A DNA stretch of 64,000 nucleotides from Cyanobium sp. E1_MAG_00006 (GTDB lineage Bacteria; Cyanobacteriota; Cyanobacteriia; PCC-6307; Cyanobiaceae), in NCBI GenBank assembly GCA_027488975.1, contig JAIYAQ010000037.1:1-64000 (forward strand). The letters are read 5' to 3'. Position numbers and translations under genes: made by a program. Position 1 is the stretch's first letter. The number at the start of each line of letters is the position of its first letter. Below, piece after piece: positions 18,790 through 50,969 of the stretch. Under the pieces are notes generated by a model. That model was not told the origin of the DNA, searched no databases, and saw only the letters and a list, made by a program, of their open reading frames with translations.

Positions 18790-21606
18790 GTGCCTGTGGC
18801 CGCGCCCGCCAAGCAGCAGCCGGAGCTGAACCTGCAGGGAAGCCTCTTCGCCACGGGCACTTTCGCGGCCGAAACACCTCCCGATCCGCATCCAGAAACA
18901 ACACCCGCAACGGCTGGATCGGAACCACTCCCAGAGCTTCTTTCGGAATCCAACCCCGACCGACCGCGGCAGCGCCGAGCCTCCAAGGCCCCCGCGGCAG
19001 ACAACGCCCCTGCACCCGAGAGCGGCGCAGAAGCAGCCGCAGAGCCTGACGACGACTCCGACCTGCCCGCCTGGCACCACCACGGCCTGGTGGATCCGGA
19101 GCAGCTCACGCCGATGCTGCGTCACTACGTGGAGCTCAAGGCCGCCCACCCGGAGCGGGTGTTGCTCTACCGCCTGGGTGATTTCTTCGAATGCTTCTTT
19201 GAGGACGCCATCAAGCTCTCGCGCCTGCTGGAGCTGACACTTACCGGCAAGGAGGGCGGCAAGGCGATCGGTCGGGTGCCGATGGCAGGCATCCCCCACC
19301 ATGCCGCCGAGCGCTACTGCGGCGAGCTGGTGCGGCGCGGACTGAGCGTGGCCCTGTGCGACCAAGTGGAGGCCACCCCAGCCAAGGGGGCCCTGCTCAA
19401 GCGCGAGATCACGCGCGTGCTCACCCCCGGCACGGTGCTGGAAGAGGGCATGCTGAGCGCACGCCGGAACAACTGGCTCTGCGCCGTGATCTGCGAGGGC
19501 CCGGGCTGGGGGCTGGCCATCGCCGACGTGAGCACTGGCGAATTCCGCGTCACCGAACGGCAAGGCAGCGACCAGCTGCATCAGGAGCTGCTGCAGGTGG
19601 AAGCGGCCGAAGTGCTGTGGCCGGCCCCTGATCACATGCCCGACGACACCGCCGCACCGGCCTGGTGCCCGGATGCCAAACGGCTCACGCCGCTGCCCCG
19701 CACCCCCTTCAGCAGCCAAGAGGCGCGCCGCAGCCTGCTGCAACGCTTCCGGCTGGCCAGCCTCGATGGTCTGGGACTGGGCGAGATGCCACTGGGGCTG
19801 CGCGCCGCCGGTGGACTGCTGCGCTATCTCGACGACACCCAGCCCGGCAACGCCATCCCCCTGGAGCTGCCCAACACCTGGCAGGCCGGCGACCAGCTGG
19901 TGCTCGATGCCGCAACCCGCCGCAACCTGGAACTCACCCGCACCCAGCTGGGCGGAGGCTTCCATGGCTCCCTGCTCTGGGCCCTGGATCGCACCATGAC
20001 CGCCATGGGCGGCCGCTGCCTGCGCCGCTGGATCGAGGCACCGCTGCTGGATCGCGCCGCCATCACCGCCCGCCAGGACGGCGTCGGCGAGCTGGTGCAA
20101 AGCTGCGGCGGTTCGGCCCGGCGATTGCGCCTGGCCCTGCGCCGGCTGCTGCGGCCCATGGGCGATCTGGAACGCCTGGCCGGCCGCGCCGGCGCCGGCA
20201 CCGCTTCAGCGCGTGATCTTGTAGCCCTGGCCGACGGCCTGGAGCGACTGCCCCAGCTGGCGGTCCTTGTGAACAGTGCCGGCTCCGCCAGTCCACCGCT
20301 GGCAGCCCTGGGTCGACCCTGGCCGGAGCTAGCGGCCCTGGCTGCGGAGCTGCGCCACCAACTGCTCGACACCCCACCCCTCAGCCTCACGGAGGGGGGC
20401 CTGATCCACGACGGCGTCGATCCCCAGCTCGATGCCCTGCGCAACCGGCTCGACGATCAGGACGCCTGGCTGGCCGAGCAGGAGCAGGCCGAGCGGCGGG
20501 CCAGCGGCATCAGCACGCTGAAACTGCAGTACCACCGCACCTTCGGCTACTTCCTGGCGGTGAGCCGGGCCAAGGCCACGGCAGTCCCGGAACACTGGAT
20601 CCGCCGCCAGACACTGGCCAATGAGGAGCGCTTCATCACGCCGGAGCTGAAGGCGCGCGAAGGCCAGATCCTTCAACTCAAGGCCCGGGCCGCCCAGCGC
20701 GAATACGAGCTGTTCTGCCAGCTGCGCAGCCGCGTCGGCGAGCAGGCCGGCCCGATCCGCTCCGCCGCGCGGCTGGTGGCCGAGCTTGATGCGATCGCCT
20801 CGCTGGCGGAGGTGGCGGCCACCAGCGGCTACTGCCGCCCTGAGATCAGCGATCCCGCAGGGCCGGAGGCCCGCATCCTGGCGATCGAGGACGGCCGCCA
20901 CCCGGTGGTGGAACAGCTGCTGGTGGAGGAGCGGTTCACCCCCAACGGCATCGCCCTGGGGTCAACAGCGCAGGCCACCGCAACCGACTCGACCGCCGCG
21001 TCCCGGCCGGACCTGCTGGTGCTCACGGGCCCCAATGCCAGCGGCAAGAGTTGTTATCTGCGCCAGACCGGCCTATTGCAGCTGATGGCGCAGATCGGCA
21101 GCTGGATCCCGGCACGCTCAGCGCGGCTGGGCATCACCGACCGCATCTTCACGCGCGTCGGCGCCGGCGATGACCTGGCGGCAGGGCAGTCCACCTTCAT
21201 GGTGGAGATGGCCGAGACCGCCAACATCCTTCATCACGCCAGCGAGCGCTCGCTGGTGCTGCTCGATGAGATCGGCCGCGGCACCGCCACCTTCGACGGC
21301 CTCTCGATCGCCTGGGCTGTGGCCGAATACCTGGCGGGCGATCTGCGGGCCCGCAGCATCTTCGCCACGCACTACCACGAGCTCAACGAGCTGGCCGATC
21401 AGCTGCCCAACGTGGCCAACGCCCAGGTGCTGGTGGAGGAAACCGGCGACGATCTGCGCTTCCTGCACCGGGTGGTGCCCGGCGGCGCCAGCCGCAGCTA
21501 TGGCATCGAAGCCGCCCGCCTGGCCGGCGTGCCGCCGGCGGTGGTGAAGCGGGCCCGTCAGGTGCTCAGCCGCATCGAGGCCAACAGTTACGTGGCGGTG
21601 GCCTGA
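18790..21606 (+). CDS. mutS: DNA mismatch repair protein MutS
   Basis: Recognises mismatches and starts repair. In 938 residues the mismatch-binding motif is F132 and E134 in [13 protein letters not shown], followed by the connector, core and clamp domains, then the ATPase with Walker [35 protein letters not shown], Walker [17 protein letters not shown] and [10 protein letters not shown]. The first 108 residues are a Pro/Ala/acidic extension with a possible sliding-clamp peptide QGSLF at 16-20. GTG start at 18790. The 3' end overlaps cobH by 19 bases, convergent. Confidence 0.96.
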
Positions 21607-22316
21607 AGCAGCCAGGCCCGCCGCAGCAACGCGTTGAGCGCCGCCGCCACCAGGCCCGCCCCGCCGCGGCTGCCATCGAGGCGGATCTGCGGCAGAGCGC
21701 TGGCGGCCAGATGCCGCTTGCTCTCCGCCACCCCCACGAATCCCACCGGCATGCCAATCACCAGAGCCGGGGCCGCGGCCCCCGGGTGCACGGCCTCAAG
21801 CAGCACCTCCAGCGCCGTGGGGGCGCTGCCGATCAGCACCACAGCTCCGGGATGCTCCGCCAGCGCCCGCTGCATGCCTGCGGCGGCGCGGGTGCTGCCG
21901 GCAGGCGCCTCCGGAGGAGCCCAAACGAGCACGTTGTGCACCGGGTTGACAAAGGTGCGCCTGGCCATCGGTGCCACGGCCGCGGCCGCCATGGCGGTAT
22001 CGGTGAGGATCGGCGCGCCGGCCGCCACAGCGGCCAGCCCGGCCTGGCAGGCTCCAGACGCGATCACGAGATCCGCCGGCAGTGTGAGATCGCCGCTGCT
22101 GTGCACCAGCCGCTCCAGCACGTCGCGCTCGGCAGGGTCACGGAAGCGGGCGTAGACCCCCGTGGGCTCGAGAGCCGCGCGGATCAGGTGGATGCTCTCG
22201 CGAAAGATCGGATGATCCAGCGGGGAAGCCGCAAGCAGGGGGTCGTGGGGATCGATCACGCTGATGGTGAACAGGCCTGCTGCCATCCCATTGTGAGCGG
22301 CGCCCTGGCCAGGCAT
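21588..22316 (-). CDS. cobH: Precorrin-8X methylmutase
   Basis: Moves a methyl group from C-11 to C-12 to give hydrogenobyrinate in cobalamin synthesis. The family core is [15 protein letters not shown], the catalytic His in [54 protein letters not shown] and [19 protein letters not shown] 22316 gives 242 residues; ATG 22286 (232 residues) is equally possible. No other cobalamin genes are nearby. The gene is divergent from the antitoxin-toxin fusion gene. Confidence 0.92.
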
Positions 22317-22344
22317 GCACGTACTTCGCAGCAGCGTCCGGCTT

Positions 22345-22361
22345 TCTGTACGGTCTGTACA
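22345..22361. promoter_or_regulatory. TGTAC dyad, candidate operator between cobH and the Phd-PIN gene
   Basis: A perfect dyad TGTAC-N5-GTACA (22347-22361) also forms a direct repeat of TCTGTAC at 22345-22351 and 22354-22360, with 9-base spacing. It lies 78 bases before the fusion gene and 30 before cobH. Phd antitoxins usually repress their own promoter through such dyads, so this is a plausible autoregulatory site; that is inference. Confidence 0.45.
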
Positions 22362-22439
22362 TAATCAGGGACAGTGCTGCAGGCAGACCTGTAATCCCTG
22401 CTGCAACCCCGTCGCGACCCACCCCAACCACACCCGGCC

Positions 22440-23183
22440 ATGGTGCAGCCCATCGGTGACGAGACCCTCGGGGTTGAGGAGGCCCGGCGACGCCTGCCGG
22501 AACTGCTCAGCCGGGCCCAGACGGGCGCCACCACGCTGATCAGTCGCCATGGCCGGCCCGTGGCCGCGCTGACACCTCTGGGGGGTCGCATTCCCGCCGA
22601 TCCGATGCTGCGACAACGGCGCTTGCAGGCCCTGCTGAACCTGAAAGGCAGCGGCAAGGACTGCTGGACCGGCAAAGCAGCACCAGCCGCCGTGCAACCA
22701 ATGCCGGCGAGCAGCGGCCAGACAAACGGTTTCAACCCCCAGCAGCTGCGCCAGGGCGATGCGATCGCCTTCGACGGCTCTGCCCTGGTGGCCTTCGTGC
22801 GCGACACCAAGGGCACGGGCCTGTTCCTGGAACCCCTGCTGCGGGGCATTGCCCAGGGAACCTGGCGGGGTGTGATCAGCAGCCTCAGCCTGGCGGAACT
22901 GCTGCAGGGTCCCCTCCAGCAGGGCAACGAAGCCCTGGCGCAGCGCTACGCCGCCGTTTTCCGAGATCCTCAGAGCTGGACCGTGGTGCCCGCCGATGCC
23001 GACCTGGTGCAGTCGGCTGCACGGCTGCAACAGGGCAACTCTGGTCTGACGGCGAACCTCAGCTTGACGGCCGCCATCGAGCTGGCCACCGCCATCGCCG
23101 CCGGCGCCGCCGTGCTGGTGAGCGACAACCCGGAGCTGGCCCAGACTGAGCACCATCCCGTGCTCAGCGCCCTGCACCGCTGA
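22440..23183 (+). CDS. Single-chain Phd/YefM antitoxin - PIN toxin fusion
   Basis: The 247 residues join two modules normally encoded separately. Residues about 8-50 match the Phd/YefM antitoxin DNA-binding fold (GVEEARRRLPELLSRAQTG, TTLISRHGRPVAALTPL). Residues about 105-235 match a PIN (VapC-like) ribonuclease: Asp112 in AIAFDGSALVAFV, Glu153 in VISSLSLAELLQG and Asp229 in VLVSDNPEL. The third acid, expected in a DAxxLAxA motif, is Ala211 (SLTAAIELATA), so nuclease activity may be reduced or lost. The linker 51-104 is basic and Pro/Ala-rich. It is followed 34 bases later by holA on the same strand. Alternatives are a domesticated regulator or a self-inhibited toxin. Confidence 0.8.
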   Translation: MVQPIGDETLGVEEARRRLPELLSRAQTGATTLISRHGRPVAALTPLGGRIPADPMLRQRRLQALLNLKGSGKDCWTGKAAPAAVQPMPASSGQTNGFNPQQLRQGDAIAFDGSALVAFVRDTKGTGLFLEPLLRGIAQGTWRGVISSLSLAELLQGPLQQGNEALAQRYAAVFRDPQSWTVVPADADLVQSAARLQQGNSGLTANLSLTAAIELATAIAAGAAVLVSDNPELAQTEHHPVLSALHR

Positions 23184-23217: not shown

Positions 23218-24198
23218 ATGCCGATCCACCTCTACTGGGGCGACGACGAGGCCGCCCGCACTCGGGCGGTGGAGGCCCTGATCGCTGAGCTCACCGATCC
23301 GGCCTGGCAAAGCATCAACCTCAGCCGCCTCGACGGCTCGGATGCCGTGCAGGCAGCCCAGGCCCTGGCGGAGGCCCGCACCCCACCCTTCGGCGGCGGC
23401 GATCGCGTGGTGCTGCTGCAGCGCAGTCCGTTCTGCAGTCAGTGCCCGGCGGAACTGGCGCAGCAGTTGGAGGCCAACCTGGAGCTGATCCCAAATAGCT
23501 GCCATCTGCTGCTGGTGAGCCCCGGCAAACCGGATGCCCGCCTGCGCAGCACCAAGGCCCTGCAGAAGCTGGTGAAGGCCGGCGGCGCCACGGAGAAGAG
23601 CTTCACCCTGCCGGCCATCTGGGATGGGGCGGGCCAGGTGGAGCTCGTGCAGCGCACGGCTCGCGAGCTGGGGCTGACGCTCGAGCCCGCCGCCGCCGAA
23701 GCCCTCAGCGACGCCATCGGCAGCGACAGCGCCCGCCTGGCCAGCGAACTGGAGAAGCTGTCGCTCTACGTGGGCAGCGGCAAGCCGATCACGGCCGCGG
23801 CCGTGGCCGCGCTGGTGGGCAGCCAGGCCACCAACGCCCTGCAGGTGGGCGATGCCCTGCTGGCCGGCAGACCCGCCGAGGCCATCGCCCTGGTGGAGGC
23901 CCTGCTGGCCGCCAATGAGCCGGCGCTGCGCATCGTCGCCACCCTCAGCGGTCAGATCCGCGGCTGGCTGTGGGTGAGCCTGCTGGACCGCCAGGGCGAG
24001 CAGGACGTGAACGCCATCGCCAAGGCTGCCGGCATCGGCAACCCCAAGCGCATCTACGTGATGCGCAAGCAGATCCGCGGTCGCGAACCGAAGCGCTTTC
24101 TGCAGCTGCTGAGCCAGCTGCTGGAGGTGGAGAGCGCCCTCAAACGCGGCAGCGATCCCGGCGACGCCTTCCGCGATGGCTTCCTGTTGGCCAGCTGA
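23218..24198 (+). CDS. holA: DNA polymerase III delta subunit
   Basis: Clamp-loader subunit that opens the sliding clamp. The 326 residues open with MPIHLYWGDDEAARTRAVEAL (a degenerate AAA+ start without a P-loop, as expected), then LSRLDGSDAVQAAQALAEAR, PFGGGDRVVLLQR, ELEKLSLYVGSGKPITAAAV and the C-terminal collar LQVGDALLAGRPAEAI, ANEPALRIVATLSGQIRGWL. It follows the antitoxin-toxin fusion by 34 bases and may share its transcript. Confidence 0.92.
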   Translation: MPIHLYWGDDEAARTRAVEALIAELTDPAWQSINLSRLDGSDAVQAAQALAEARTPPFGGGDRVVLLQRSPFCSQCPAELAQQLEANLELIPNSCHLLLVSPGKPDARLRSTKALQKLVKAGGATEKSFTLPAIWDGAGQVELVQRTARELGLTLEPAAAEALSDAIGSDSARLASELEKLSLYVGSGKPITAAAVAALVGSQATNALQVGDALLAGRPAEAIALVEALLAANEPALRIVATLSGQIRGWLWVSLLDRQGEQDVNAIAKAAGIGNPKRIYVMRKQIRGREPKRFLQLLSQLLEVESALKRGSDPGDAFRDGFLLAS

Positions 24199-24237
24199 GG
24201 CCACCCGATAGGCCCCAGCCAGCCAAGTGCCCAGCGC

Positions 24238-24627
24238 TCAATAGGCCGCGTAGCTCTTCTCCTCCACAAGCTCAGAACCCACCAGCGCATTGATGCGGCG
24301 CTTGAGATCAGCGCGCTGGTCGTTGGTGCGGTAAACGGCGCGGGCCAGGGCGATAAAGGCGGCATCGAAGCGCTGCTGGCGCTCGTGCTCACGGATGCTG
24401 TCCTCGATCTCCCAGAGCTGCTCATTCACCCGGCGCAGCTCGGCCTCCAGCTCGGCCACCCCGACGGCAGCCCGCAACCCCGCGGCGGCCACCACGATCT
24501 CCAGCGCCTCCTGTTCACGGGCGATATTGGCGCGCTTGGCCGCATCGTCGATGCGCTGCAGCTTGATCGCCAGGATCGTGAGCTTGTCGAGCAGCTCCCC
24601 CACGGACACGGGCACCTGAACGGGCAT
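24238..24627 (-). CDS. DUF6165 family protein
   Basis: The 129 residues begin MPVQVPVSVGELLDKLTILA, the typical opening of the DUF6165 family, followed by a mostly helical, charged protein (KLQRIDDAAKRANIAREQEA, LEAELRRVNEQLWEIEDSIR, NDQRADLKRRINALVGSELV). Function is unknown; the pattern suggests a coiled-coil. ATG 24627 is chosen over the upstream ORF start because the family motif begins there. It is divergent from lysC and convergent with holA. Confidence 0.8.
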   Translation of the reverse strand: MPVQVPVSVGELLDKLTILAIKLQRIDDAAKRANIAREQEALEIVVAAAGLRAAVGVAELEAELRRVNEQLWEIEDSIREHERQQRFDAAFIALARAVYRTNDQRADLKRRINALVGSELVEEKSYAAY

Positions 24628-24734
24628 GGCGGACAACCGGGCTGGCCGGCGGGTGAGCGGGAGCTGGCCGGAGCGTAGAGACGGATAATCCCTCAGATCC
24701 ACGACCGCCACAGCCGGCGTCCCCCTGCACTGCC

Positions 24735-26588
24735 ATGGCCCTGCTGGTTCAGAAATTCGGGGGCACCTCGGTGGCCGATCCGGAGCGCATCCAGGCGGTG
24801 GCCCGGCGCATCGCCGCCAGCCGCCAGGCCGGCAACGATCTGGTGATCGTGGTGTCGGCCATGGGGCACACCACCGACGAACTCACCGGGCTGGCCAGGG
24901 CGATCAGCAGCAATCCTCCGCAGCGGGAGATGGACATGCTGCTGGCCACCGGCGAGCAGGTGTCGATCGCGCTGCTCGCCATGGCCCTGCACGCCATCGG
25001 GGTACCGGCCGTGTCCATGACAGGCCCGCAGGTGGGCATCCTCACCGAATCGGCCCACGGCCGCGCCCGCATCCTCGAGGTGCGCACCGACCGACTGCAT
25101 CGGCTGCTGGGCGACGGAAACGTGGTGGTGGTGGCAGGTTTCCAGGGCACAAGCAACGGCCTGAGCGGCGTGCCTGAGATCACCACCCTCGGCCGCGGCG
25201 GCTCCGACACCTCGGCCGTAGCCCTGGCCGCTGCCCTGGGGGCTGACGCCTGTGAGATCTACACCGATGTGCCGGGTGTGCTCACCACCGACCCGCGCAA
25301 GGTGGCCGATGCCCAGCTGATGGAGACGATCACCTGCAACGAGATGCTGGAACTGGCCAGCCTCGGGGCCGCCGTACTGCACCCGCGGGCCGTGGAGATC
25401 GCCCGCAACTACGGCGTACCGCTGGTGGTGCGCTCCAGCTGGAGTGAGGCCCCTGGCACCCTGCTCACCAGCGACGCCGCCAGCCGCCGCGGCAGCGGGG
25501 TGGGACTGGAACTGGGTAAGCCGGTGGATGGCGCAGATCTCGAAACCGATCAGGCGGTGCTGGCCCTGGCCCATGTGCCTGATCGCCCCGGCGTGGCTGC
25601 TCAGCTGTTCGAGGCCCTCTCCGGGGCAGGCCTGAACGTGGACCTGATCGTGCAGGCCACCCACGAGGCGGAGGGCCAGTGCAGCGGCAGCGACTGCACC
25701 TTCACCAACGACATCGCCTTCACCGTGGCCGAGGAGCAGCTGGATCGGGCCCAGCTCGTGTGCCGTGAAGTGCTGGCGGCGATGGGCCCGGCCGCCAGCG
25801 GCGCCACCCTCAGCGCCGAGGCCGGCATGGCGAAACTCAGCATCTCCGGCGCCGGCATCATGGGTCGCCCCGGCGTGGCGGCTCGACTGTTCGACACCCT
25901 TGCCAAACAGGGCGTGAACCTGCGCCTGATCGCCACCAGCGAGGTGAAGGTGAGCTGCCTGGTGGCTGGCTTCCAGGGGGCCAAGGCCCTGCAGGCAGCA
26001 GCCAACTGCTTCGAACTGAAAGAGCGCCAGCTGCACCACAACCCCCCACCGGCCGGTGCCGGCGAACCGGAGGTGCGCGGCGTGGCCCTCGATCGCGATC
26101 AGGCCCAGGTGGCCGTGCGCCACATCCCGGACAAACCCGGCACCGCGGCGGCCGTATGCCGCGCGCTGGCCGATGCCGCCATCAGCCTCGATGCGATCGT
26201 GCAGTCGGAGCGCACCCACGGCAGCGGCGAGCAGCGCAGCCGCGACATGGGCTTCACCCTCAAGCGCGACGACCTCGATCGCGCCCACACAGCCCTGCAG
26301 CCCCTGCTGAACCAGTGGCCCGGCGCCAGCTTCGAGGAGGGCCCGGCGATCGCCCGCGTGAGCGCCGTGGGCGCCGGCATGCCCTGCACCGCCGGCACGG
26401 CGGCGCGGATGTTCCGCTCCCTGGCAACCGAAGGCATCAACATCGAAATGATCGCCACCAGCGAGATCCGCACCAGCTGCGTGGTGCCGGAAGCCGACGG
26501 TGTGCGCGCCCTGCAGGCGGTGCATGCCGCCTTCGGCCTGGGCGGCGCGGTGGTGCACAAAGCTGAGGGCACCGAAGCGCCTGTCTGA
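24735..26588 (+). CDS. lysC: Aspartate kinase with four ACT domains
   Basis: First committed step to lysine, threonine and methionine. The kinase domain (about 1-250) has VQKFGGTSVADPERI, TTLGRGGSDTSAVALAAALG and IYTDVPGVLTTDPRKV. The rest holds four ACT repeats as two pairs: VPDRPGVAAQLFEALSGAGL, GRPGVAARLFDTLAKQGVNL, IPDKPGTAAAVCRALADAAI and CTAGTAARMFRSLATEGINI, each pair followed by an ATSEVKVSCLV or ATSEIRTSCVV strand. The duplicated regulatory region is typical of cyanobacteria and allows feedback by lysine and threonine. Length 617 is normal for this class. Confidence 0.95.
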   Translation: MALLVQKFGGTSVADPERIQAVARRIAASRQAGNDLVIVVSAMGHTTDELTGLARAISSNPPQREMDMLLATGEQVSIALLAMALHAIGVPAVSMTGPQVGILTESAHGRARILEVRTDRLHRLLGDGNVVVVAGFQGTSNGLSGVPEITTLGRGGSDTSAVALAAALGADACEIYTDVPGVLTTDPRKVADAQLMETITCNEMLELASLGAAVLHPRAVEIARNYGVPLVVRSSWSEAPGTLLTSDAASRRGSGVGLELGKPVDGADLETDQAVLALAHVPDRPGVAAQLFEALSGAGLNVDLIVQATHEAEGQCSGSDCTFTNDIAFTVAEEQLDRAQLVCREVLAAMGPAASGATLSAEAGMAKLSISGAGIMGRPGVAARLFDTLAKQGVNLRLIATSEVKVSCLVAGFQGAKALQAAANCFELKERQLHHNPPPAGAGEPEVRGVALDRDQAQVAVRHIPDKPGTAAAVCRALADAAISLDAIVQSERTHGSGEQRSRDMGFTLKRDDLDRAHTALQPLLNQWPGASFEEGPAIARVSAVGAGMPCTAGTAARMFRSLATEGINIEMIATSEIRTSCVVPEADGVRALQAVHAAFGLGGAVVHKAEGTEAPV

Positions 26589-26626
26589 GGCGCCCGGCTC
26601 GCAGGCCAAGCTCAGGCAGCCAACGC

Positions 26627-28183
26627 TCAGACCGTGGCCGCGATGCCACCAGGCTCCAGCATCAGCTTGCTGTTGCGCAGCGACTCCTCCATCTCAATCG
26701 GGTAGGCGCCGTCGAAGCAGGCGGTGCAAAAGTGGCCGGCATTCGACCGTGCCGCTTCCACCATGCCCTCCTTGCTGAGGTAGGCCAGCGAATCCACGCC
26801 CAGGTGGGCGGCGATCTCGGCCAGGGTGAGGCGGGCAGCGATCAACTGGTCCTGGGTGTCGGTGTCGATGCCGTAGAAGCAGGGGTGGGTGACGGGCGGC
26901 GAGCTGATGCGCATATGCACCTCGGTGGCGCCGGCATCACGAATGGCGGCCACCAGCTTGCGGCTGGTGGTACCGCGCACGATCGAATCGTCGATCACCA
27001 CCACCCGCTTGCCGGCCAGCACGTCCGGCAGGGGATTGAGCTTCACGCGGATGCCTGCTTCGCGCATCGCCTGGGTGGGCTGGATGAAGGTGCGGCCCAC
27101 ATAGCGGTTCTTGATCAGGCCATCGCCGAAGGGGATGCCGCTGTACTGGGAGTAGCCGATGGCCGCCGGGATACCGGAATCGGGAACACCGATCACGATG
27201 TCTGCCGCCACGGGCGTTTCACGGGCCAGGGCTTCGCCGATGCGCACCCGATAGCTGTAGAGCGACTCGCCAAAAAAGCGACTGTCGGGCCGGGCGAAGT
27301 AGATCATCTCGAACACGCACAGCCTGGCGGGTTCGCTGATCCAGCGGCTGCGCTGCGGCTCTGGATCGCCGAGGCGGAACTGGATGATCTCGCCGGGCTC
27401 GACATCGCCGTCAAAACTGGAGCCAATGATGTCGAGGCCGCAGCTCTCGCTGCTCACAACCCACTGCGCTTCGCTGCGCTCGCCCATGTGGCCGAACACC
27501 AGCGGACGGATGCCATGCCCATCCCGCAGGGCGAACAGACCTTCAGGGGTGCCGATCACCAGGCTGAAGGCACCGCGGCAGCGCTCGGCGGCGGCGCGGA
27601 TGGCGGCGTCCCAGTCGAGCCCACCGTTCACCGCCTGCTGGATGGCGAAGGCGATCAACTCCGAATCGGTGGTGGAGGTGAACTCCGCCTCGGGGGTGTC
27701 GGCGGCGATGGCCTGGCGCAGCTCGGCCGCGTTCACCAGGTTGCCGTTGTGGGCGAAGGCGAAGGCCCCCAGGCGCGTGTTGAGCACCACCGGCTGGGCG
27801 TTGCAGGCCTTGCTGCTGCCGGTGGTGGAATAGCGGTTGTGGCCGATGGCCAGGTGGCCGGGCAGGCGCTGCAGCAGCTCCTGATCGAACACCTGACTCA
27901 CGAGCCCCATGTCCTTGTGCAGGCGCACCTGCAAACGCCCGTCCACAGGGCCATCGAACACCGCGATGCCGGCAGACTCCTGGCCGCGGTGCTGCAGGGC
28001 GTAGAGGCCGAAGTAGGTGAGATTGGCCACCGGCTGGTCGGCCGCCAGCACCGCGAACACACCGCAGGCCTCCTCGGGCTTGTCGGGGCGCTCCAGAGCC
28101 TCGTCCTGCCGGGTGGGGCTGATGCCGGGCTGCAGATCGCTCACAGCAGGTCCCACCGTTGGATTGGCTTCAGCATTGTGCAT
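26627..28183 (-). CDS. purF: Amidophosphoribosyltransferase
   Basis: First step of purine synthesis, making phosphoribosylamine from PRPP and glutamine. ATG 28183 gives 518 residues with a 39-residue propeptide-like leader before the nucleophile Cys40 (CGVFAVLAADQP); a GTG at 28144 is an alternative. The glutaminase domain has YALQHRGQESAGIAV and GHNRYSTTGSS, and the transferase domain has the PRPP loop VVIDDSIVRGTTSRKL. It lies 31 bases downstream of purL, forming a purL-purF operon. Confidence 0.95.
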   Translation of the reverse strand: MHNAEANPTVGPAVSDLQPGISPTRQDEALERPDKPEEACGVFAVLAADQPVANLTYFGLYALQHRGQESAGIAVFDGPVDGRLQVRLHKDMGLVSQVFDQELLQRLPGHLAIGHNRYSTTGSSKACNAQPVVLNTRLGAFAFAHNGNLVNAAELRQAIAADTPEAEFTSTTDSELIAFAIQQAVNGGLDWDAAIRAAAERCRGAFSLVIGTPEGLFALRDGHGIRPLVFGHMGERSEAQWVVSSESCGLDIIGSSFDGDVEPGEIIQFRLGDPEPQRSRWISEPARLCVFEMIYFARPDSRFFGESLYSYRVRIGEALARETPVAADIVIGVPDSGIPAAIGYSQYSGIPFGDGLIKNRYVGRTFIQPTQAMREAGIRVKLNPLPDVLAGKRVVVIDDSIVRGTTSRKLVAAIRDAGATEVHMRISSPPVTHPCFYGIDTDTQDQLIAARLTLAEIAAHLGVDSLAYLSKEGMVEAARSNAGHFCTACFDGAYPIEMEESLRNSKLMLEPGGIAATV

Positions 28184-31530: not shown

Positions 31531-32661
31531 CTACTGGCGGATCTGAACCGGCATCACCAGGTAGGTGAAGGCGGGGTCGTCATGGGGTGCGAGCACCACG
31601 GGAGTCGTGGGTGCGTTGCAGCGCAGCTCGACCCGTTCGGAGGTCATGGCCTTGAGACCATCAAGCACATAGCGGACGTTGAAGGCGATCTGGATGGCAT
31701 CGCCGGTGATCTCGGCGGCCAGGGATTCGGAGCCGCTGCCCACATCCTGGGCATCGGCGCTGATGGCCAGCTGACCATGGGCCGGATCACTGCTGAGCTT
31801 GACCACGTTGTTGTGCTGGTCAGCCAGAACCGCCACCCGTTCCAGGGCGCTCACAAGGCCGCGGCGATCGATCGTGAGGGTGCGCACGAAGCTGTCTGGG
31901 ATCAGCTGGCGATAGTTGGGATACGTGCCATCGAGGCTGCGGCTGGTGAGCACCTGATCAGCCCACTGGAACACGACTTGGCCGCGATCACAGAACAGAC
32001 TCACGGCCTCAGCGCCACCACGACCGGAGAGCAGGCGCTCCAGTTCCCGCAGGGAGCGCGCGGGCACGGTGACATCCACAGCACCCTCTCCCTCGGCGCT
32101 GTTCTCCAGCCGCAGCACCGCCAGGCGATGGCCATCGGTGGCGGCGCATTCGAGGCCCTGCTCATCGAGGCCGAGGTGCACACCGGTGAGCAGCTGCTTG
32201 GCCTCGTCGCCACTGCTGGCGAACAGGGTGGCCCGCAGGCCCCTCACCAACACATCGGGATCGAGGCGGATCGGTGTGCTGCTCTGGGCCAGCGGCAGCT
32301 CGGGGAAGTCATCTGCCGGCATGCCGCGCATCTGGTAGCTGCCTGAGGCGCTGGTGAGCTCCACCTGCTCACTGGCCTCCGCGCAGCTGAGGCTGATCGG
32401 GCTGTCGGCCGGCATGCGGGCCACGATCTCGCCGAACAGGCGTGCCGGCAGGGTGATGGCGCCGCTGGTCTGGACAGAGGCCGCGAGGCTGGTCTGAATT
32501 CCGAGGCTGAGGTCGTAACCGGTGAGGCTGAGACGCCCGGTGCCGGCATCAGCGGTGAGCAGCACGTTGGCCAGCACCGGATGGGTGGGGCGGCCTGCCA
32601 CGGCCCGACTCACCAGCTGAAGGCTGGCGTTGAGTTCGGCCTGGGAGCAGACCAGCTTCAT
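31531..32661 (-). CDS. dnaN: DNA polymerase III beta subunit (sliding clamp)
   Basis: Ring-shaped processivity factor. ATG 32661 gives 376 residues, starting MKLVCSQAELNASLQLVSRA; the upstream reading is not family-like. Three clamp domains are visible, with GRPTHPVLANVLLTADAGTG, GVHLGLDEQGLECAATDGHR and the C-terminal APHDDPAFTYLVMPVQIRQ, whose MPVQI strand forms part of the partner-binding groove. It is the first gene leftward of the candidate origin. Confidence 0.97.
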   Translation of the reverse strand: MKLVCSQAELNASLQLVSRAVAGRPTHPVLANVLLTADAGTGRLSLTGYDLSLGIQTSLAASVQTSGAITLPARLFGEIVARMPADSPISLSCAEASEQVELTSASGSYQMRGMPADDFPELPLAQSSTPIRLDPDVLVRGLRATLFASSGDEAKQLLTGVHLGLDEQGLECAATDGHRLAVLRLENSAEGEGAVDVTVPARSLRELERLLSGRGGAEAVSLFCDRGQVVFQWADQVLTSRSLDGTYPNYRQLIPDSFVRTLTIDRRGLVSALERVAVLADQHNNVVKLSSDPAHGQLAISADAQDVGSGSESLAAEITGDAIQIAFNVRYVLDGLKAMTSERVELRCNAPTTPVVLAPHDDPAFTYLVMPVQIRQ

Positions 32662-33058
32662 GGCGGAGTGGAAGGGTCCCCCACGCTTCCACAGGGCGCC
32701 CCGAAGCGCAACGGGCGGCTCCCTCACCCAGCCTCGCGTTCCCCAGCCGATCGCTAAACGGATTTAAAGGTTTGAAGAGAAGAGATGGAATCCGTAGTCG
32801 TAGGGCCTGGGGAAAGCGGCAAGAAGCCTTAAAACCCCCTGTGCCGCAAAGGCTTTTTAAAACACAGCCCTGCGGAAAGCCGCCTGAGAGAAAACACTCA
32901 TTCGACCTTTTCCTGAGATTCCGGAGGCTGGGGAAAACAACGGCTTGGTTGGGCTGTGTTGACCCCGGCGGTTTTCCCGGTTCCGACGGGAGCTTTTCCT
33001 GAGGTTGTGGACAGACACTTTCTGGCCTGGCGGCGGTTTGCTGACCCTGTCGGAGCAC
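32662..33058. other. oriC: Candidate chromosomal replication origin (dnaN-thrC intergenic region)
   Basis: This gene-free stretch is about 50 % GC in three hand-counted lines (32761-32940), against roughly two thirds in its surroundings. It holds a cluster of TTTTCC-core motifs resembling the cyanobacterial DnaA box TTTTCCACA: TTTCCCCA (complement of 32808-32815), TTTTCCTGA 32908-32916, TTTTCCCCA (complement of 32929-32937), TTTTCCCGG 32972-32980, TTTTCCTGA 32994-33002 and CTGTCCACA (complement of 33006-33014). None is a perfect box. In Synechococcus elongatus the origin is also placed beside dnaN. The dnaN promoter must also lie here. Confidence 0.6.
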
Positions 33059-49289: not shown

Positions 49290-50969
49290 ATGGTTTTCGA
49301 CTGGTTCAACCGGGGCCAGGCCCCCCAGAACCCCCAGCCCGCCGCGCCGGAACCGGCCCCGGAGCCGCCTCGGGCCGACGAGTCTGTGGCGGCTGAGGCT
49401 CCTGCAGCCGATCCAGCCCCAGAACCCCCGAGCGTTACTGCCCCGGCCCCCGACAGCCCGAGCGCTCCCGTCGGCGTCGATCAGGACGCCTTGGAGTGGG
49501 CCCGCCAGGCCTACGCGCGCCTCAAGGCCCAGCAGGAGGCCGAACGGCAGGCCTCCCAGGCTGCTGAGGCCGCGCCACCCGCGGCGGCCGCTGCGCCTGG
49601 TGCGAGTGCCCAGGCTTCTGTACAGGCTGTACAGAAATCGGGAGAGGTGCCTGCAGGCCTGTCCCCTGATGATGTGTCTGGCCCGGCCCCTGCGGCTGTG
49701 GGTGAGCCTGCTTTGCAGCCCGAGCCCGAGCCTGCGCTCGAAACCGAGCCGGCTGCTCCCGCCTCCGCTCCGTCTGCGGGACTGTCGCTGCTGGAGCTGG
49801 CCGCCGCCCAGCGCGCGCAGCGGCAGCAGGAGATCCGCGAGCGAGCGCTCGACGTTGTTCAGGAGCCCGCCGCGCCGTCAGCGGCGACTGTGCCGGCTCC
49901 TGCTGCCGCCACACCATTCACTGCAGCCGGGGCGGTGGATGAGGCCGCGCCCCAGCTCGGTGCCTTTGATGACGACTTCACCTGGTCGGCGGAGGTGCTG
50001 GCCGCCCAGGGCCGCCAGCTCGAAGACATCTCCCTGGAGGAGATCGACTGGCTCGGCCGCCTGCGGCGCGGCATGGAGAAGACGCGCCGCGGCTTCGTCA
50101 CCCAGTTGCTCGACACCCTCGGCGACGATCCCCTCAGTCCCGAGGTGCTCGACGACCTCGAGACCCTGCTGCTGCGCGCCGATGTGGGCGTCCAGGCCAC
50201 CGATCAGGTGCTCGAGGCCCTGCGCCGCCGCATGAACGAGGAGGTGGTGGATCCGGCCGAAGGCATCCGCTTCCTCAAGGATCAGCTGCGGGGCCTGCTT
50301 GAGGCCCCGATCCAGGCCAGCGGCGTTCCGCTGCTGGCGCCCGAGCGCGGGCGCCTGAATGTCTGGCTGATGGTGGGTGTGAACGGTGTCGGCAAGACCA
50401 CCACCCTCGGCAAGCTGGCCAATCTCGCCATCCGCAGCGGCTACAGCTGCCTGATCGCCGCCGCCGACACCTTCCGCGCCGCCGCCGTGCGCCAGGTGGA
50501 GGTGTGGGGGGAGCGCAGCGGCGTGAGCGTGGTCTCGAACCCCTCGGCCAACGCCGATCCGGCTGCTGTGGTTTTTGATGCCATCGGTGCCGCCCGCGCC
50601 AAGGGCACCGATCTGGTGCTGGTGGACACGGCCGGTCGCCTGCAGACCAAGCACAACCTGATGGAGGAGCTCACCAAGGTGCGCCGCATCGTCGACAAGC
50701 TGGCGCCGGAAGCGGTGGTGCAGTCGCTGCTGGTGCTGGATGCCAGCCAGGGCCAGAACGGCCTCAAGCAGGCAATGGCCTTCGCGCAGGCCGCCGGTCT
50801 CACCGGCGTGGTGCTCACCAAGCTCGATGGCAGTGCCCGCGGTGGCGTTGCCCTGGCGGTGGCCTCCGAGGCCAACCTTCCCATCCGCTTCATCGGCGCC
50901 GGCGAGGGCATCCGCGACCTTCGGCCCTTCAACAGCTTCGAGTTCATCGAGGCCCTGCTGGCCTCCTAA
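49290..50969 (+). CDS. ftsY: Signal recognition particle receptor FtsY
   Basis: GTPase receptor that docks ribosome-SRP complexes at the membrane. The conserved NG domain occupies the C-terminal 300 residues: DDLETLLLRADVGVQATDQV, G1 GVNGVGKTTTLGKLANLA (about 362), AADTFRAAAVRQVEVWGERS, DTAGRLQTKHNLMEELTKV and TKLDGSARGGVALAVASEAN. The first 230 residues are an Ala/Pro/Glu-rich acidic extension used for membrane contact. The ATG has a strong site AACAGGAG 5 bases upstream. A perfect 21-base palindrome lies in the extension. Confidence 0.95.
   Translation: MVFDWFNRGQAPQNPQPAAPEPAPEPPRADESVAAEAPAADPAPEPPSVTAPAPDSPSAPVGVDQDALEWARQAYARLKAQQEAERQASQAAEAAPPAAAAAPGASAQASVQAVQKSGEVPAGLSPDDVSGPAPAAVGEPALQPEPEPALETEPAAPASAPSAGLSLLELAAAQRAQRQQEIRERALDVVQEPAAPSAATVPAPAAATPFTAAGAVDEAAPQLGAFDDDFTWSAEVLAAQGRQLEDISLEEIDWLGRLRRGMEKTRRGFVTQLLDTLGDDPLSPEVLDDLETLLLRADVGVQATDQVLEALRRRMNEEVVDPAEGIRFLKDQLRGLLEAPIQASGVPLLAPERGRLNVWLMVGVNGVGKTTTLGKLANLAIRSGYSCLIAAADTFRAAAVRQVEVWGERSGVSVVSNPSANADPAAVVFDAIGAARAKGTDLVLVDTAGRLQTKHNLMEELTKVRRIVDKLAPEAVVQSLLVLDASQGQNGLKQAMAFAQAAGLTGVVLTKLDGSARGGVALAVASEANLPIRFIGAGEGIRDLRPFNSFEFIEALLAS
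49616..49636. repeat. 21-base perfect palindrome inside ftsY
   Basis: Ten-base arms TTCTGTACAG and CTGTACAGAA flank a single G. Seen another way, it is two copies of the palindrome CTGTACAG one base apart. It encodes VQAVQ in the low-complexity N-terminal extension of FtsY. It shares the TGTAC core with the dyad near 22347. Confidence 0.75.

Follow-up and report, generated by a model that had tools for sequence, protein, structure and literature searches.

The window analysed here, the first 64,000 nucleotides of contig JAIYAQ010000037.1 of Cyanobium sp. E1_MAG_00006, carries between cobH and holA a single gene that joins a Phd/YefM-type DNA-binding domain to a PIN domain. This gene is probably a domesticated toxin-antitoxin (TA) pair, whose product would be a catalytically dead autorepressor of an operon with holA, with the PIN half serving as a scaffold. 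The starting point would have been an ordinary two-gene module of the Phd-VapC type between cobH and holA. Its two genes would have merged into a single frame, the nuclease would have lost its catalytic acids and the product would have been retained as a DNA-binding protein. In its present form, the Phd half would bind a paired TGTACA palindrome upstream and repress the fused gene and holA, perhaps the divergent cobH too. The PIN half would no longer cut RNA and would most likely be a dimerisation module that spaces the DNA-binding halves. The features concerned are as follows.

21588..22316, minus strand: cobH/cbiC, precorrin-8X methylmutase (Pfam CbiC), divergent neighbour of the fused gene.
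22344..22364, no strand: paired TGTACA-like palindrome, putative operator, with the core TGTACGGTCTGTACA at 22347-22361, between cobH and the fused gene.
22440..23183, plus strand: fused Phd-PIN gene of 247 aa, supported by the open frame, profile matches and 46 one-frame orthologues.
22464..22580, plus strand: Phd/YefM-type DNA-binding domain, residues 9-47, from profiles and predicted structure, with R16 and R36 unchanged in all 46 fusions.
22632..22667, plus strand: segment L65-W76 with the motif L-x-GSG-x3-W common to two-gene antitoxins, a putative toxin-contact segment.
22770..23147, plus strand: PIN domain, residues 111-236, from profile, alignment and predicted structure, with D112, E153, A211 and N230 at the acid positions.
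23218..24198, plus strand: holA, DNA polymerase III delta subunit (Pfam), downstream of the fused gene.

The preliminary description of this DNA had placed a Phd module and a PIN nuclease in one uninterrupted frame, and this was borne out: the frame at 22440-23183 is open, and separate profile searches of the halves matched both domains. NCBIfam phd_fam (TIGR01552) matched the Phd half over its cut-off (E 2e-6), and Pfam PhdYeFM (PF02604) reached E 9.5e-6 and 25.7 bits, under its cut-off of 29.8. Pfam PIN matched the second half over its cut-off (E 1.1e-6), and the NCBIfam VapC equivalog NF047959 scored 12.1 bits against a cut-off of 80. An AlphaFold model of the full chain, built on the 46 orthologues (mean pLDDT 85), predicted both folds: residues 108-245 gave a PIN fold with VapC15 as best match (Z 13.3), and residues 6-48 corresponded to the VapB46 N-terminal domain (Z 7.3, rmsd 1.2 over 43 residues). 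Because each of the 46 orthologues has the two halves in one frame, the gene is no sequencing accident, and a frameshift or chance fusion is ruled out. The fused chain thus differs from Phd/YefM antitoxins, which are separate small proteins, and the 46 one-frame loci do not show the arrangement of two genes, antitoxin first, of type II TA systems. The motif L-x-GSG-x3-W is mostly retained in the fusions (G70 invariant; S71, G72 and W76 each at 90% or more). Two-gene antitoxins carry a tail after this motif, which the fusions lack.

Searching 400 genomes of the family gave matches in 72. We identified at least 52 loci in at least 51 genomes, namely 46 fused loci (45 genomes), three two-gene loci (L046, L050 and L051) and three broken ones (L048, L049 and L052); the 51 carriers are a lower bound because few of the weak matches to a single half were fetched. 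L031 and L053 were dropped as duplicates, and L055-L057 as unrelated or partial. A named relative comes from an uncultured Synechococcaceae bin. In a class-wide scan of 291 genomes, with up to nine candidates scored per genome, both halves were found in one frame only inside the family. The same locus is occupied throughout: cobH and holA flank the gene wherever the contig extends far enough (the contig of L051 stops before cobH). In the window, the order by Pfam is MutS, CbiC (cobH), the fused gene, holA and an amino acid kinase with ACT domains, which by our reading is lysC. A position directly before holA had been claimed for the gene, and the gap is indeed 34 bp. Among 49 fused or two-gene loci, all but one have a gap no longer than 40 bp, and in 29 of the 49 the genes touch or overlap. 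Hence holA is probably co-transcribed with the fused gene.

The gene is also frequently absent. Forty stretches upstream of holA were fetched from genomes without a full-length match, and among those listed cobH mostly lies close to holA, with a few wider gaps; the stretch L093 has no cobH. Remnants of the gene were found at L058, L059 and L063. Absence from most of the 400 genomes, together with these three deletion remnants, shows that the fused gene is dispensable, which counts against domestication. On a tree of the neighbouring genes (91 of 92 rows, L093 left out), presence and absence of the gene need 12 changes. Thus it is either old at this place and often lost, or it has moved in repeatedly with its flanks.

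The catalytic acid positions of the PIN half (112, 153, 211 and 230) were set by aligning the fusions with the two-gene forms, and the three broken loci were left out of the counts. D112 and E153 are retained in the window protein, and A211 and N230 are losses, so that only two of the four catalytic acids of a VapC are present. Among the 46 aligned fusions, Asp is found at position 112 in 43 and at position 230 in 23, Glu at position 153 in three (the window protein included), and Asp at position 211 in none. One acid is retained in 24 fusions, two in 21 and three in a single one. Meanwhile, all three two-gene forms have all four acids. The claim that Ala replaces the motif Asp at 211 is therefore confirmed. 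It had further been stated that one acid is missing and that D112, E153 and D229 are present; D112 and E153 stand, and both D229 as a catalytic acid and the count fall. In the alignment D229 pairs with His and merely adjoins the lost acid, which rules it out as the fourth catalytic acid; the fourth Asp column is residue 230, Asn in the window protein. As the fourth Asp is residue 230 and not 229, the window protein is without two acids. Judged by eye, this site reads T-N-D in 11 of 11 PIN proteins outside the family.

The two acids left in the window protein, and the three in one relative, count against a dead toxin and make some residual activity conceivable. Together with the PIN fold, D112 and E153 might speak for a self-inhibited or conditionally active RNase, as the preliminary description had considered. 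D211, however, is lost in all 46 fusions, E153 in 43, more than half of the proteins keep a single acid, and the C-terminal tail of the antitoxin is gone. A self-inhibited nuclease is for these reasons very improbable. Both halves of the fused protein are under purifying selection: in 20 close pairs picked by hand, omega of the PIN half is 0.05-0.71 (median about 0.19), that of the Phd half does not exceed 0.31 in the 19 pairs for which it is defined, and the linker is freer (0.06-0.79). Since the PIN half is constrained even where its acids are lost, it should have a role other than cutting.

Two unrooted trees bear on how the fusion arose. The three two-gene forms make up one clade of the gene tree (support 100/99), and one change divides them from all fusions. 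An ordinary Phd-VapC pair thus probably fused once. The neighbour-gene tree counts against a single fusion, as the fused and two-gene states need three changes there; the two-gene genome G192 adjoins the fused G168 and is nested among fused relatives. A single fusion, together with exchange of the complete locus among genomes, is the most economical reading, and repeated fusion or fission of the locus is possible on the neighbour-gene tree. Given the intact acids and the two-gene relatives outside the family, the direction of change was likely from pair to fusion. Separate genes for the two halves had been named as a possible sign of a sequencing error or chance fusion. Such genes do exist at the three two-gene loci, but because these form a separate clade with intact acids, they indicate ancestry and not error.

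The DNA upstream of the gene is conserved as well. The pattern GTACN5GTAC was found at 47 of the 52 loci that carry the gene and at none of 39 that lack an intact copy, against about 0.03 per locus expected from shuffling. When fused and two-gene loci were anchored on the conserved Gly of the Phd half, 44 of 48 had the palindrome, 41 of them at 47-144 bp before this residue and three farther upstream. The fused loci L007, L024, L026 and L028 count against this rule, having the palindrome only in a form with two mismatches. At L011, L013, L014, L016, L018 and L020, the TGTACA-like boxes stand in tandem, one every 9 bp, instead of as a single pair. No sigma-70-like consensus promoter was detected at 22250-22460, a result that speaks against the autorepressor reading.

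Paired TGTACA hexamers are also the operators of YefM, whose residues R10 and R31 are required for DNA binding, according to excerpts of the published accounts (PMC3920265, PMC4803016). From their position in the motif, we infer that R16 and R36 correspond to this arginine pair. The likeness to YefM-YoeB autoregulation hence extends to both the hexamers and the two arginines, with the differences, as far as these excerpts go, that the hexamer centres are 12 bp apart in YefM-YoeB and 9 bp apart here, and that the partner toxin is RelE-like there and PIN here. Because the gap to holA is short, the putative operator probably governs holA too, as judged from gene spacing. Among the options first put forward, a domesticated repressor fits best: the DNA-binding half, its two arginines and the palindrome are conserved, and acids are lost in 46 of 46 fusions.

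The same locus allows another reading, in which the fused protein is an anti-addiction factor that guards against the intact pair at this locus, by repressing its near-identical operator or by binding its toxin. Fused and two-gene alleles occupy one place and share the palindrome, G192 sits among fused relatives as recombinational replacement would leave it, and the antitoxin motif is mostly retained. However, no genome with both alleles was seen among the matches listed for the 400 genomes, the fusions lack the C-terminal tail that the two-gene antitoxins have, and the dispersed sites described below are left unexplained. We therefore consider anti-addiction improbable; like residual RNase activity, it is less likely than a domesticated autorepressor.

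Besides the operator, the palindrome occurs elsewhere in the chromosome. Three perfect TGTACNNNNNGTACA palindromes are present in the genome of the window, at 22347 and 49619 of the window and on contig 31. With one mismatch allowed, 28 sites were counted against 24 in the control, so only near-perfect copies count. At up to three mismatches the window has two matches, a number reached in 17 of 100 shuffles. The second site and the gene used below as origin marker are as follows.

31531..32727, minus strand: dnaN, marker of the replication origin region.
49619..49633, no strand: a further perfect palindrome, TGTACAGGCTGTACA, within the 5' portion of ftsY (49290-50969).

The strict pattern TGTACRNNNYGTACA was counted in the 400 family genomes, own operators included, with the counts for this tally and for the tree test entered by hand. 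The palindrome recurs at up to about ten places per genome, mainly in gene carriers: three or more strict sites were found in 32 of 51 carriers and in 5 of 349 other genomes. Of these five, G205 and G209 have gene remnants and G106 is closely related to carriers. The other two, G251 and G309, are draft assemblies with a completeness of 84% and 88% and no holA match. In a hand-picked subset of 70 genomes with own-locus sites removed, the mean was 3.7 in 32 fused-gene genomes and 0.26 in 31 without the gene. Non-self sites match the consensus of the own operators; farther than about 11 bp from the centre, they are little conserved.

These counts raise the possibility that the fused protein is a multi-site chromosomal factor, which would bind, besides its own operator, a small set of scattered palindromes enriched near the origin and act as a regulator of scattered genes or as an organiser of DNA near the origin, bridged by PIN dimers. 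The pattern in the 400 genomes and the shared consensus favour it, as does the lack of strict sites in two of the three two-gene genomes, G181 and the 78% complete draft G127. On the other hand, the third, G192, has three, and 8 of 51 carriers have none. The tree-corrected test held only six supported independent contrasts, and its sign test was significant at neither threshold, the power being too low: with two sites as threshold about 3.3 contrasts agreed, none opposed and 2.7 showed no difference, and with one site about 3.4 agreed and one opposed. By a rough gene call based on GC3, 39 of 69 non-self sites are intergenic (17% expected). These 39 have no promoter preference (9 divergent, 20 tandem and 10 convergent), and the 16 proteins beside sites form no coherent regulon; they include MutS, MazG, a GntR regulator, a LuxR-type regulator, an IF-2B family protein, an ABC1 kinase, pseudouridine synthases and an SRP54-type GTPase. 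In genus g6, clusters of two to four sites surround homologous genes at L157, L164 and L170, one of which at L164 encodes a DUF6880 protein.

The SRP54-type GTPase is FtsY by our reading. FtsY was searched for in 30 genomes, and a site in ftsY was accepted at up to 2 mismatches in 14 positions. Of the 16 fused-gene genomes searched, 8 have it, as do one of the 12 that lack the gene and one of the two that carry remnants; four further genomes with it (three fused, one remnant) were found via the site itself. It occurs in two genera, always in the identical reading phase, and both of its Val codons are GTA, a codon rarely used: across four window genes, with the site counted in, it makes up 8 of 166 Val codons. 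This distribution also favours a multi-site factor. Conservation of a mere peptide motif was judged unlikely, as VQxVQ occurs in 2 of 20 site-less FtsY proteins with other codons, one of the two outside the FtsY N-terminal region.

We take the replication origin to lie near dnaN, which in the window starts 8 kb farther along, at 31531. In five closed genomes, including G205 with a gene remnant only, 12 of the 24 sites fall no farther than 250 kb from dnaN, against 4.0 expected (KS p 4e-4; positions entered by hand). Within 50 kb, one of five distances tried, 5 of 24 sites are near the fused gene (p 0.001) and 3 of 24 near dnaN (p 0.04). The two biases are inseparable because the fused gene itself is near dnaN. 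A shallow minimum of cumulative GC skew was noted at 24001-28000 of the window, a position near the fused gene with dnaN a few kb away. Taken for and against, a multi-site factor and its wider, origin-biased binding network are possible, a reading that we put forward tentatively. The fuller version, in which the TA pair became a chromosomal factor with a palindrome network denser near the origin, beside the clamp-loader gene holA, and the dead PIN half bridges or clusters sites, is somewhat more doubtful still.

Alternatively, the dispersed palindromes may be the sites of another regulator or a mobile palindromic repeat, with the fused gene merely one of their locations. The arms outside the core, often complementary and variable, would agree with this, as would palindromes of about 43 bp and the further Phd/YefM-like proteins of these genomes. 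Yet the sites track the fused gene, the ftsY site stays in the same position across two genera, and a Phd-like frame (E at most 0.01) was found in 5 of 63 non-self stretches, two of which are the same place. We regard this explanation as unlikely. Arms that are often complementary yet differ in sequence were recorded at L161, L163, L171, L172, L154 and L136 and at the ftsY sites of G165, G177, G200 and G205, some of them making palindromes that are perfect or nearly so over about 37-43 bp; hairpins, cruciforms or mutation that corrects palindromes may be behind them. The genome of the window also has a second Phd-like match (contig 31, 3446-3598, E 3.6e-8) within an open frame of 498 codons.

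For the preferred reading, a domesticated autorepressor, the closest known systems are the two-gene Phd/YefM-VapC pairs (VapB46-like plus PIN), which share the folds, the order and the kind of operator and occur intact at the same locus in three relatives. Compared with them, the fusion is one chain that has lost toxin acids and the C-terminal tail of the antitoxin. Fused TA chains are already known, including one Phd fusion thought inactive: yb_293189 of Ralstonia eutropha is described, in the excerpted source, as a Phd-RelE fusion whose truncations are thought to abolish activity (PMC4826407). It likewise joins a Phd antitoxin to a toxin; here the toxin is PIN, and the fusion belongs to a conserved orthologous family for which operators and sites are documented. 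EzeT of E. coli also holds antitoxin and toxin domains in one polypeptide, but according to excerpts its toxin is a zeta-type kinase that is active after removal of the antitoxin part (PMC4826407, PMC4803016). No Phd-PIN fusion was found in the excerpts of the mostly open-access literature consulted (PMC2701414, PMC4826407, PMC5498466, PMC3920265, PMC4803016). What is new here is a Phd-PIN family that shows, at one locus, the stages between an intact pair and a dead fusion. As a side observation, in ten cases among cyanobacteria (L204-L213) a PIN protein of about 148 aa overlaps a small upstream gene by 13 nt. The upstream genes have a variable front and a tail ending in a similar E-[RK]-x-x-W motif, a pattern that suggests DNA-binding halves swapped onto one toxin-binding tail.

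Domestication of TA modules has often been proposed and is hard to catch midway. In this family, one locus displays the intact pair, the dead fusion, broken forms, remnants and clean absences, with the operator kept. Because all stages are present at one locus with the operator kept, the steps become testable. A selfish element has here probably turned gene regulator; if the dispersed palindromes are bound as well, it would have become a chromosome-wide factor.
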